The notes under the pieces were generated by a model. That model was not told the DNA's origin. It did not search any database and was given only the letters and a program-made list of their open reading frames with translations. Positions 8,504 to 12,113 of a stretch of 38,171 bases of DNA are shown piece by piece (position 1 is the first letter of the stretch; each line of letters starts with the position of its first letter). The translations under genes and the position numbers were made by a program. Source of the stretch: Elusimicrobiota bacterium. Lineage in GTDB: Bacteria; Elusimicrobiota; Elusimicrobia; UBA1565; UBA9628. The stretch lies in assembly GCA_023700845.1 (NCBI GenBank), contig JAMPYD010000003.1:1-38171 (forward strand), in the 5' to 3' direction.

Positions 8504-9682
8504 CGCGAACCGCAGGCACGGCCACGCGGCCAAGGTGCCCGCCGTGCCGACGAGGGACAGGATCACCATCGCGGCATACGCGCCGTGCGAGGCGCTGAGG
8601 CTCTCGTACAGGCGCCCGCCCAAAGTGTTCGACGCCGACGCGGCGATATTGAACACCGCCATGTACGCCGCGAACACCGTCGCCTCGGCCCCCTCGGGGC
8701 AGGACTTCGCCGCGAGATCCATCCACGCCAGGCGGAACACGACGCCCGTCAGGCTGAACAGCAACGTCAGGATCAGGATCGAGAGAGGTCCCCGGTAGAA
8801 CAGATACAGCAAGGTCAGGGGCGCGCCGAGCCAGATCGACGCCCGCGCCACCTTCTCCGTCCCCCCCGCCGTGAGCCGCCCGAACAGCGCCGCTCCCGCC
8901 AAGCCGGCGAAGCCCCCCGCCGTGGACAAGCCTCCGATGAAGATCGGCGACAGCTTGAGCGCCTCGCTCTGATAATAGAATTGCGCCGTTCCGAGGAAAG
9001 GGCAAAAGCTCCATAAAAAGATACCCAGCGCGACGGCCCATGCCTTCGGGTCCCGGAACATGCCGGTCAAGCCGCTCCAGCCCCGCGCGGCCGTCTCCTT
9101 CACGTCTCCGACGCCCGACTCGTCGAGCCATCGGGCCGACCACGCCGTCATCAACGGGAAAACAGCCGTCAGTATGAACACCCAGCGATAAGGCGCGTGC
9201 TGCGACAGCCAGCCTCCGCCGAACCCCGTCACGATCAAGGTCCCATACAAGGTCCCGATCGACACGGCCTGATAGATACCGGTCTTCCCTCGCTCCTTGC
9301 CGCGCTCCACCATGACGCCGTCGCACACGACGTCGGACAGCACGAAGCCGACATTCACCAGGATCAGGAGCGTGAGGGCGGCGAGGTAATTGGGCTCCTT
9401 GAGCCCGGCCAACAGCAGCCAGCCCACCGAGGTCAGCAGCGAGACGGCGATCAGGTGCGGCGCGCGCCTTTTCCCCGCCCACGGCAAAAAGTCGGTCAGC
9501 ACGCCGAACAGGGGCTTGATGGTGAGCGGCAAGGTCATCCATGCGACGAACAGCGCGGCCTGGCCGGAACCGAGCTGGAGGGCATCCTTCAGGTAATACG
9601 ACACCGGCTCGTAGGCGAGCCCGCCCATGCCCTGGGCGAAATAGTTCACCGCGAAGAACAGGTAGATCTTGTCGCGCTTCAC
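8477..9682 (-). CDS. MFS transporter (BT1/AmpG-like)
   Basis: About 12 hydrophobic segments, [25 protein letters not shown] motif; GTG start. Confidence 0.82.
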
Positions 9683-9692
9683 GCGGTCAACC

Positions 9693-10085
9693 TCAGCCGC
9701 AGGACGACGAGCTTTGGTCTTCTTTGCCCGGGAACCAGGGCATCACGATCACGTCCACGCCCATGTCCTTGACCGCCTTCTCCGTCTCCGGGTCGGGCAG
9801 CTTCTGGTCGTAGCCGAGCACGAGGATGTCCGGATTCTCCTTGCGCATCGTCTCGGCGAAGCTCTTGGCGTTGCCGATCACCACCTTGTCGGCGATGCCC
9901 AGGGCCTCCACCCACTTCTTCCTCTGCTTGGCGGGGACGGCGTTGGGCTTGCGGTTGTGGGAGTCGTTGGACAGCACCACGACGAGGGTGTCGCCCAGGA
10001 CGCGGGCGGAGCGCAGCAGGCGGATATGCGCGGCGTGGACGCGGTTGAAGCAGCCTGCGGCGAAGACGATGACGGGCTTGTTCAG
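9693..10085 (-). CDS. Cytidylyltransferase-like / RfaE-C-like nucleotidyltransferase
   Basis: VIVFAAGCFNRVHAAHIRLLRSAR...VVVLSNDSHNRKPNAVPAKQRKKWVEALG; no in-frame ATG/GTG/TTG near the tatA stop, CTG at 10085 overlaps the tatA TGA. Confidence 0.75.
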   Translation of the reverse strand: MNKPVIVFAAGCFNRVHAAHIRLLRSARVLGDTLVVVLSNDSHNRKPNAVPAKQRKKWVEALGIADKVVIGNAKSFAETMRKENPDILVLGYDQKLPDPETEKAVKDMGVDVIVMPWFPGKEDQSSSSCG

Positions 10086-10267
10086 GGTTTCTTGGCCGGG
10101 TCGTCTTGCTTGGGGGCATCGTCGTCGATGCCTTCCTTCAGGCCCTTCTTGAACATGTTCATGGCGCGGCCGCACTGCTTGGCGAATTCAGGGATCTTGC
10201 TGGGTCCGAAAAGGATGAGCGCGACGACGGCGATGATGACGATTTCCGTTGTTCCGAGACCGCCCAT
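10082..10267 (-). CDS. tatA: Sec-independent translocase TatA/TatE-like protein
   Basis: MGGLGTTEIVIIAVVALILFGPSKIPEFAKQCGRAMNMFKKGLKEG; GGAGG Shine-Dalgarno before ATG 10267. Confidence 0.9.
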   Translation of the reverse strand: MGGLGTTEIVIIAVVALILFGPSKIPEFAKQCGRAMNMFKKGLKEGIDDDAPKQDDPAKKP

Positions 10268-10291
10268 AACGTTCCTCCAGGGTACAGTCAC

Positions 10292-10300
10292 ATTTTATCA
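10292..10300 (-). promoter_or_regulatory. Extended -10 TGATAAAAT for tatA operon
   Basis: Reverse complement TGATAAAATGTGACTGTACCCTGGAGGAACGTTATG; same 9-mer as the AsmA promoter. Confidence 0.5.
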
Positions 10301-10393
10301 TTATTCGGGTTGGGGTGGATTGGGACGATGTGATGCGGTGATGCCTATCACGTCTAAAAAGGAGTCAGGTTTTAGTGGCAAATTGATGGAATT

Positions 10394-10461
10394 CGCTCTA
10401 CAATCCGGGGATAGGCTGATTCGGACCGGAATTAAGCTGGTCAGCCTAATAGGCGTTAGCG
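10394..10461. other. Candidate degenerate attC-like site
   Basis: TAGGCTGA (10412-10419) / TCAGCCTA (10441-10448) arms, followed by GGCGTTAGCG; 5' outer arm CGCTCTAC only partly complementary. Confidence 0.35.
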
Positions 10462-10493
10462 TGCCACTAGGCATGACCACTGGCAAGACCTTA

Positions 10494-10512
10494 TATAGTG
10501 TGTTACACTATA
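10494..10512. promoter_or_regulatory. Inverted repeat TATAGTGT-GTT-ACACTATA overlapping -10 TATACT
   Basis: Perfect 8-bp arms; TATACT at 10509-10514; ATG of small ORF 6 nt after. Confidence 0.7.
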
Positions 10513-10520
10513 CTATCTGA

Positions 10521-10631
10521 ATGGCCAAGTTTAAATTCGTCGCCAGAAACGGGAAAGTCAGACCTATCAGCACCCGACCCGCTCACAAGAAGGAGAGAGA
10601 ACTCTATGAAGCCTACTTACGCGAAATCTGA
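10521..10631 (+). CDS. Small ORF (36 aa), unknown; possible partner of downstream CopG-type antitoxin
   Basis: MAKFKFVARNGKVRPISTRPAHKKERELYEAYLREI*; placed directly behind promoter/operator; overlaps next start. Confidence 0.4.
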   Translation: MAKFKFVARNGKVRPISTRPAHKKERELYEAYLREI

Positions 10632-10854
10632 AAAGGCATACGCAAGCACTTCCGTATTCGAAAGGAAGAAGATCCTTGCGTCCGCCAAACGGCTGAAGAA
10701 GAGCCGCAAACTGCCCACGAGCATCGCGCTCGAGGAAAGCACCATCACTGAGCTAAAGGCTCTTGCTGAGTGGCGAGGCGTGCCCTACCAGGTTCTTATG
10801 CGCATGTTCATTCTGGATGGCCTTCACAAGTCGCAGGCAGCAGTCGCACGCTAA
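10606..10854 (+). CDS. CopG/RHH-like antitoxin
   Basis: PTSIALEESTITELKALAEWRGVPYQVLMRMFILDGLHK; AGGAGAG Shine-Dalgarno before ATG 10606. Confidence 0.75.
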   Translation: MKPTYAKSEKAYASTSVFERKKILASAKRLKKSRKLPTSIALEESTITELKALAEWRGVPYQVLMRMFILDGLHKSQAAVAR

Positions 10855-10928
10855 CCATTGGCTAGACCAGCCGGCGGCCTCGTTTGGTTGGACTGTTGAA
10901 GCGCCGCTGGTCAGCCCCTGCGTTATGC
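10849..10928. other. Candidate attC-like recombination site
   Basis: CGCTAAC...GTTATGCG outer arms (one bulged T) and GACCAGCcGGCG...CGCCGCTGGTC inner arms with one extra base; antitoxin stop codon lies inside the 5' outer arm. Confidence 0.5.
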
Positions 10929-10958
10929 GCACATTAACATCGGAGGGCGCTAAAACGA

Positions 10959-11234
10959 ATGGCTAATCCGAAGCTTATCTTTGGATTTATTGCATACGGT
11001 GTGGGATCGCTTTTCCTCCTTGTCTCCATCCTTGCTGCCGGATACAGATGGAAAACGGGGTTTTACAGCTCCGGCGTGAACATCGTCCCAACAGTGGCGG
11101 CGCTGCTCGGCAGTCTAAACGGGGTTCCCTGGAAGGCCTTTTTTGTGTTTGCAGTTCTCGACATTGTGAGTTTCTTTATCGGATCGGGCGCAAAGCATTT
11201 ATCGATTGAGCAGAGGAATCCGAACGACGCATGA
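10959..11234 (+). CDS. Small membrane protein, unknown
   Basis: 91 aa, hydrophobic segments FIAYGVGSLFLLVSILAAGY and AFFVFAVLDIVSFFIGSG; lower GC than surroundings. Confidence 0.65.
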   Translation: MANPKLIFGFIAYGVGSLFLLVSILAAGYRWKTGFYSSGVNIVPTVAALLGSLNGVPWKAFFVFAVLDIVSFFIGSGAKHLSIEQRNPNDA

Positions 11235-11320
11235 GTGCCTCGGTCCGGTGAGGAATAGCCGCCGCCATTCATCCAGACGCGACGAGACCGCTTCCGGCGT
11301 GAGACGTCGAATGGAGTACT

Positions 11321-11593
11321 ATGGTCGCGGCTTCCAAGGTCATAGTGAAACGCAAAATCACCCGCGCCGCCGCCCATCGCCCGCCCTCGGATCTCCGCAA
11401 AGCGATCGCGTCCGACGCCGCCGCGAGGACCGTTTGGGCCGATATCACGCCGTTGGCGCGCAATGAGTGGATCTGCTGGGTCACATCCGCCAAGAAAGCC
11501 GAGACTCGGACGCACCGTATAGCCGTCGGCCTCGATAAGATGCGCAAAGGCATGCGCCGGCCGTGCTGCTGGCCGGGCTGCCCCCACAGGTGA
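11321..11593 (+). CDS. YdeI/OmpD-associated (OmdA-like) domain protein
   Basis: DLRKAIASDAAARTVWADITPLARNEWICWVTSAKKAETRTHRI...RRPCCWPGCPHR. Confidence 0.85.
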   Translation: MVAASKVIVKRKITRAAAHRPPSDLRKAIASDAAARTVWADITPLARNEWICWVTSAKKAETRTHRIAVGLDKMRKGMRRPCCWPGCPHR

Positions 11594-11627
11594 AGGTCCC
11601 CGACTCTCATCCCGACGGAGGAGCGCC

Positions 11628-12113
11628 ATGAGCAAGATCGCGAAGAACACCATCTGCCTCTGGTACGAACGCGACGCCGAGGAGGCGGCGAAGTTCTACG
11701 CCAAGACCTTCCCGGATTCATCGGTCGGCGCCGTGCATCGCGCGCCGGGAGATTTCCCCTCGGGCAAGCAGGGCGACGCGCTGACCGTCGAGTTCACCGT
11801 GCTGGGCATCCCCTGCCTCGGGCTCAACGGCGGGCCCGCGTTCCAGCCCAGCGAGGCGTTCTCGTTCCAGGTCGCGACCGAGGATCAGGCCGAGACCGAC
11901 CGCTATTGGAACGCGATCGTCGGCAACGGCGGCCAAGAGAGCGAATGCGGCTGGTGCAAGGACAAGTGGGGCATCTCCTGGCAGATCACGCCGGTCGCGC
12001 TGACCAAGGCGTATACCAGCCCCGATCGCGCCGTCGCCAAGCGGGCCTTCGACGCGATGATGACGATGAAGAAGATCGACGTCGCCAAGATCGAGGCCGC
12101 GGTCCGCGGCTAG
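11628..12113 (+). CDS. VOC family / PhnB-like (3-demethylubiquinone methyltransferase-like) protein
   Basis: ITICLWYERDAEEAAKFYAKTFPDSSVG-type start, GLNGGPAFQPSEAFSF, CGWCKDKWGISWQITP. Confidence 0.9.
   Translation: MSKIAKNTICLWYERDAEEAAKFYAKTFPDSSVGAVHRAPGDFPSGKQGDALTVEFTVLGIPCLGLNGGPAFQPSEAFSFQVATEDQAETDRYWNAIVGNGGQESECGWCKDKWGISWQITPVALTKAYTSPDRAVAKRAFDAMMTMKKIDVAKIEAAVRG

Follow-up and report, generated by a model that had tools for sequence, protein, structure and literature searches.

A gene cassette behind an attI-like site without a neighbouring integrase gene: a probable integron platform in an Elusimicrobiota chromosome

How can an integron gene cassette reside in a chromosome with no integrase gene beside it? 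The question is raised by a window of 38,171 nt from an Elusimicrobiota bacterium (GCA_023700845.1, contig JAMPYD010000003.1, positions 1 to 38,171 of the forward strand; 'the window' means this whole stretch), in which a hairpin follows a gene for a CopG-type protein. An initial annotation, made from the sequence alone, had proposed that the hairpin is an integron attC site, that is, a gene-cassette signature without an integrase. Our analysis indicates that positions 10329 to ~11240 form a small integron platform lacking an integrase gene (intI) of its own and composed of an attI-like site, a possible promoter, one complete cassette and the front of a second one; we put the probability of this reading at roughly 0.85. 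Its principal features are as follows.

10329-10390, + strand: upstream part of a conserved attI unit, containing the motif CTATCACG and, at 10375-10380, GTGGCA as a possible -35 hexamer
10391-10455, + strand: attI-like site recognised by the profile R3 (below), crossover after G10455; the TACAAT at 10399-10404 is conserved in the family
10456-10922, + strand: gene cassette 1, 467 bp, TTAGCG to ...CTGCG, delimited by 10/10 pairing of R'' and R' and by the borders of a copy in the congener G009
10849-10928, + strand: attC site, R'' at 10849-10855 and R' at 10922-10928, supported by the models R1 and R2 (below) and by the fold

The attC site and the borders of cassette 1

The boxes CGCTAAC (R''), which overlaps the TAA stop codon, and GTTATGC (R'), 66 nt on, follow the RYYYAAC ... 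GTTRRRY-like pattern of attC sites around an imperfect palindrome, with extrahelical bases and an unpaired spacer between the two stems; the initial annotation had described the positions of the boxes and the inner arms exactly. The bottom strand, folded as single-stranded DNA, forms one long stem (-21.2 kcal/mol, z -2.25) which 5 of 200 shuffles equalled. By itself such a fold is only moderately unusual, and the case for an attC site rests on other evidence.

The first piece of this evidence concerns the ends of the cassette. The outer arm of the stem has a bulged T because the last six bases of R' come from the next cassette; in the circular form of cassette 1, R' reads GTTAGCG, the full complement of R''. 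The sequence GTTAGCGTGC (10455-10464) pairs at 10 of 10 positions with the R'' sequence GCACGCTAAC (10846-10855), and the two copies of this 10-mer in the window, where 0.05 would be expected by chance, are situated exactly at the two cassette ends. A copy of the same cassette in G009 (702 bp, 92.7% of positions the same in the aligned region) ends its identity with the window at both G|TT crossovers, outside which only 15 of 80 positions to the left and 30 of 100 to the right are the same. We are dealing, then, with a discrete G|TT-bordered unit found in different contexts, which is what defines a gene cassette. A third copy, in G011, has a body 89% alike; the match stops before the attC site, and the attC of the G011 cassette therefore differs.

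The second piece is provided by covariance models. Model R1 was built from nine aligned attC sites of class 1 integrons taken from public plasmid records; it ranked 10850-10928 first in the window with 20.8 bits (E 0.0023, on a roughly calibrated scale), and the next site, not an attC, reached 14.6 bits (E 0.13). A BLAST search of the genome with the site as query found two relatives, around which six attC sites were recognised on contigs C362 and C395. In the alignment of the window site with these sites, 10 of 17 stem pairs have changed on both sides with pairing preserved. From local attC sites, the window site being in the training set, we derived model R2; it scores the window site at 81.1 bits and finds nine attC sites in the genome, the other eight (48.7-91.9 bits) being distributed over C362 (three), C395 (three), C471 and C203. 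The consensus folds of local and class 1 attC sites are alike, both with two unpaired bases in the 5' arm and six pairs between them. An Rfam scan of the site gave no family at threshold, which neither supports nor excludes an attC, and a loose degenerate DNA pattern of the stem produced chance matches only, no more than its reversed control, and was abandoned.

Given these data we attach almost no credence to a chance hairpin or an ordinary terminator after the CopG gene. It is true that the z value is only -2.25 and that GC-rich sequence yields many weak hairpins; still, homologous sites exist in the genome and in the genus, the stem shows covariation, and the exact cassette borders rule out a chance hairpin, while no T-run terminator is present in the region. 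We take the hairpin to be a genuine gene-cassette attC, whose bottom strand would be expected to recombine. The attC interpretation of the initial annotation was thus upheld, and other sites of the kind and the same cassette were indeed found elsewhere. The three checks by which it could have been refuted on its own terms (covariance score, other attC sites in the genome, synteny) all spoke for an attC. The local drop in GC content that it had reported is real as well (from ~0.64 to 0.50-0.57 across 10200-11400).

The attI-like site, its locus and the cassette cargo

What the initial annotation missed is the attI-like site directly upstream of the cassette. Cassette starts across the genus were located by looking upstream for GTT sites that match R'', mostly at 9-10 of 10 positions, and first cassettes turned out to be preceded by a conserved sequence, TTTTC...CTACAATNCG, ~35 nt, GACCAGCATAATCACAAG|TT. 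Thirteen attI sites were aligned for the family; the profile R3 was made from eight, five of them beside true intI genes, and neither the window and the rest of its genome nor the tatA locus of other species contributed to it. R3 finds window positions 10391-10459 with 24.8 bits (E 6.9e-7); its only other matches in the window are a partial reverse-strand one within that site and a second at E 9.5. Applied to a sample of 151 genomes of the phylum, the profile gave no score outside this genus. The family adjoins intI and stands directly before the first cassette, as expected of an attI. With such a site upstream, the locus is more than a stray attC.

Over a further ~60-70 bp before attI, the sequence is common to attI loci that are not orthologous; in the window the left edge of this unit lies approximately where synteny with G018 stops (10328). 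A promoter scan of the upstream part gave 9/12, a weak result. A second TATACTGACC-like word, ~70 bp before the attI core, was seen upstream of attI in ~40 loci; it recalls the additional direct repeats to which the integrase binds in attI1 and may be analogous to them.

The window attI is ~120 bp from tatA, and the contig continues upstream of it through >10 kb of ordinary chromosome. The congener that resembles the window most closely at this locus, G018 (flanks ~90%), lacks the segment, and its tatA and tauE are ~50 bp apart. Locus content differs between congeners, so that the segment is not a conserved one, and the more distant G006 and G016 carry an attI at the tatA locus. The empty site of G018 might be taken as proof of recent insertion; we rejected this argument since, with attI present in G006 and G016, a loss of the segment from G018 is no less likely. 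As a synteny anchor the cytidyltransferase gene to the left worked, and the VOC gene to the right was uninformative. The cytidyltransferase-like gene beside tatA (window 8900-10120) has a ~85% identical second copy at a contig end of the same genome (G000:C410 5500-6568, L081), which may be a paralogue or may belong to a stray contig from a related strain.

Cassettes do integrate into non-classical genomic sites, attG (PMC12901181, PMC12444791), and in G005 the tatA region is followed by a cassette start in front of which no attI was recognised. One could suppose, therefore, that the window cassette was inserted into an attG with no integron platform involved. We consider this quite improbable: the left flank matches an attI profile derived from other loci and is common to the orthologous sites of G006 and G016, and a conserved 65-nt attI is not expected at attG sites. 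A plain attG insertion is largely refuted by the attI match.

The platform carries the following genes and cassette parts.

10521-10631, + strand: remnant of a brnT toxin gene, 36 amino acids, with a 234-bp in-frame internal deletion (PF04365)
10606-10854, + strand: BrnA/CopG-type antitoxin gene, 82 amino acids (PF12441)
10923-11240, + strand: front part of cassette 2, with an open reading frame of 91 amino acids at 10959-11234; attC lost, right end approximate

The brnT remnant covers only positions 58-77 of PF04365 (E 0.0054, below the cut-off), and BrnT in the G009 copy is full length (PF04365, E 2.8e-18). The antitoxin gene, which overlaps the remnant and has its stop codon in R'', matches PF12441 with E 3.9e-5, just below the curated cut-off. 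An intact BrnT domain followed by an antitoxin gene, the type II BrnT/BrnA arrangement, is present in the G009 copy and missing in the window; judging from the two copies, the window cassette has kept the antitoxin and lost the toxin through the 234-bp in-frame deletion. A BrnT-like reading frame was also seen just downstream of intI, before attI, in several integrons of the genus that have an intI (L037, L038, L039; G003, G018, G005); it may represent a toxin-antitoxin pair that stabilises the platform.

Homologues of the 91-amino-acid frame in G001 and G036 are situated inside cassettes that start with G|TTATGCG, as cassette 2 does, and end in attC; in G013 a homologue occupies the first gene position behind an attI. 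A scan of the window with R2 detected no second attC. The frame after the attC thus belongs to a second cassette whose attC was lost. The next genes, OmdA/YdeI-like and 3-dmu-9 (VOC), at 11321-12113, are located in the segment absent from G018, have host-like GC content and no attC, and are probably not cassettes.

Integrase genes and dispersed attI sites in the genus

If this is a platform, which integrase (IntI) filled it? As the initial annotation had claimed, there is no intI at the locus (>10 kb upstream on the contig), and none in the assembled genome (71% complete, 476 contigs). Matches to TIGR02249 and NF011946 in the genome were rejected as IntI, being XerC beside topA and XerD beside recA. 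A complete integron, with intI adjoining attI, is accordingly not what the window holds. An intI of this locus or of a neighbouring array might have been hidden by contig breaks or by the missing part of the assembly; C362, for instance, starts 20 bp before its attI, leaving the upstream side unseen. Such a split integron is conceivable for other contigs of this fragmented assembly and not for the present locus, given the length of upstream chromosome on the window contig; we see it as an unlikely explanation.

Integrases do exist in relatives. Matches to TIGR02249 far over the cut-off were found in 12 of the 44 genomes of the family, and the family IntIs have a common stretch, KYPNA.KEWGWQWVFP, which we take to be the IntI-specific insertion. 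On contigs that have both intI and attC, transcription of intI runs toward attI. In most family IntIs (L036-L046) the integrase N-terminal domain is preceded by ~100 additional residues containing a conserved motif, LPYSPERLAKIKTVPGRRWH..EKYWSVP, and no Pfam family matched this motif. The sole IntI of G013 (L045, G013:C1:2960333-2961256) stops prematurely after HVLNRGGGGS, past all the conserved catalytic positions; the protein could be active or truncated, or the early end could be a sequencing error.

We scanned 19 congeneric genomes with R3 and examined 50 attI sites, contig ends limiting a few cases; there were up to eight attI sites per congener genome. An attC on the same strand was detected downstream of 39 of the 50 (31 of 42 without the eight training sites) and an opposed one downstream of none, while only seven had an intI upstream. 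G013 is assembled as a single contig with one intI and five attI sites, and fragmentation therefore cannot explain the many-attI pattern there. Several intI-less attI sites are orthologous between species by upstream homology. The tatA-locus attI is followed by three different first cassettes in G000 (the genome of the window), G006 and G016, and G009 and G013 differ in cassettes at a common locus. Different first cassettes at orthologous intI-less attI sites imply either exchange without a resident intI or repeated later loss of intI. We also noticed a cassette of ~250-294 bp without an obvious gene, containing the perfect palindrome AACTGTTTCCGGAAACAGTT; it is present in two arrays of the window genome and in G005, G006 and G018 (L034 1441-1734, L072, L075 near 8555, L077 near 1308, L084 near 3901).

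By established integron biology, a cassette would arrive as a circle, and an integron integrase would pair its folded bottom-strand attC with attI, the cut being made between G and TT. Since there are several attI sites per chromosome, most of them without an adjoining intI, an IntI encoded elsewhere in the genome could act in trans on the dispersed sites, and this is the simplest reading of them. The genus would then have a distributed integron, in which one or a few IntI per cell serve scattered fixed attI platforms, each with a promoter of its own and a short array, the window being one such satellite. We offer this wider model tentatively, as somewhat less than an even bet.

A number of observations weigh against it or against the platform as such. 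The window attI is among the weaker scorers of R3, with 24.8 bits versus 30-55 for intI-linked attI sites; R3 and R2 were both built from the genus to which the window belongs, and the E-values of the models are calibrated only roughly. In an assembly of 71% completeness and 476 contigs an intI elsewhere could have been missed. G016, G009 and G015 have several attI sites and no detected intI, which fits relics as well as service in trans. Remnants of an intI tail upstream of three further attI sites (G015:C138, G015:C418 and, weakly, G011:C90) show that at some sites the lack of an intI goes back to the loss of a local gene. The window platform itself looks aged, with a diverged attI, a gutted toxin gene and a lost second attC, and may be inactive.

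These remnants and signs of decay, together with the published case of Treponema phagedenis, where attC sites were left after loss of intI (PMC3607928), would agree with the window being a relic of a complete integron at the tatA locus, from which the intI between tatA and attI was deleted and the rest remained inert. This is a serious possibility, if short of a probable one. Still, no trace of intI is seen at the tatA locus in G000, G006 or G016, yet each has a different first cassette; fixed relics should have cassettes in common unless intI was lost separately in each lineage. The dispersed attI sites are most likely either satellites supplied with cassettes in trans or relics of integrons whose intI has disappeared.

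Comparison with known systems

The integron paradigm is one integrase, one attI and one array, with the first cassettes best expressed. If the distributed integron is true, many cassettes would hold the expressed first position at once, and the existence of many intI-less attI sites per chromosome would change the picture of cassette storage and expression. The attI family described here is defined by sequence in a little-studied lineage and should be useful for studying IntI action in trans.

A cluster of attC sites lacking integron integrase is known as a CALIN, and a CALIN with only one attC may also be a true positive (PMC9024848). Like a CALIN, the window locus has attC-bounded cassettes without a neighbouring intI; it differs in having one detectable attC, below the IntegronFinder 2 default of >=2 attC without intI (C362 and C395 have three each), and in its attI-like head, which is outside the CALIN definition. 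Under the distributed model, some CALINs would be working satellite platforms instead of debris. The authors of IntegronFinder 2 state that there is typically one attI, close to the integrase, and that attI sites outside class 1 are undetected (PMC9024848); standard annotation would miss such platforms because these sites are not searched for.

The attC architecture of the window, with two unpaired bases in the 5' arm and six pairs between, and the G|TT crossover are those of class 1 integrons, while the attI is unrelated by eye, the orientation of intI in relatives is reversed and the window has no resistance cargo. Transcription of intI toward attI and attC relics without intI (in T. phagedenis) are both described for Treponema in PMC3607928; this paper gives one attI per integron and relies on attC sites, and no dispersed attI sites are reported in the part consulted. 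The Xanthomonas CALINs outside the ilvD locus resemble our case in being several intI-less cassette clusters at conserved positions, with no attI mentioned for the CALIN loci in the part of PMC12444791 consulted, whereas here an attI heads most of them.

Thus, the attC, the cassettes, an attI-headed array without intI, multiple CALINs at conserved sites and the reversed intI are already known. No report of many intI-less attI sites per chromosome was found in the open-access literature, and the dispersed multi-attI arrangement is apparently new. In the attI-headed CALIN of the Shewanella prophage M16-3 (PMC9892861), a complete integron and an array without intI in a single genome both begin with the same attI sequence type; there, a single such array is located in a prophage, while the genus considered here has up to eight attI sites per chromosome, with orthologous sites across species.
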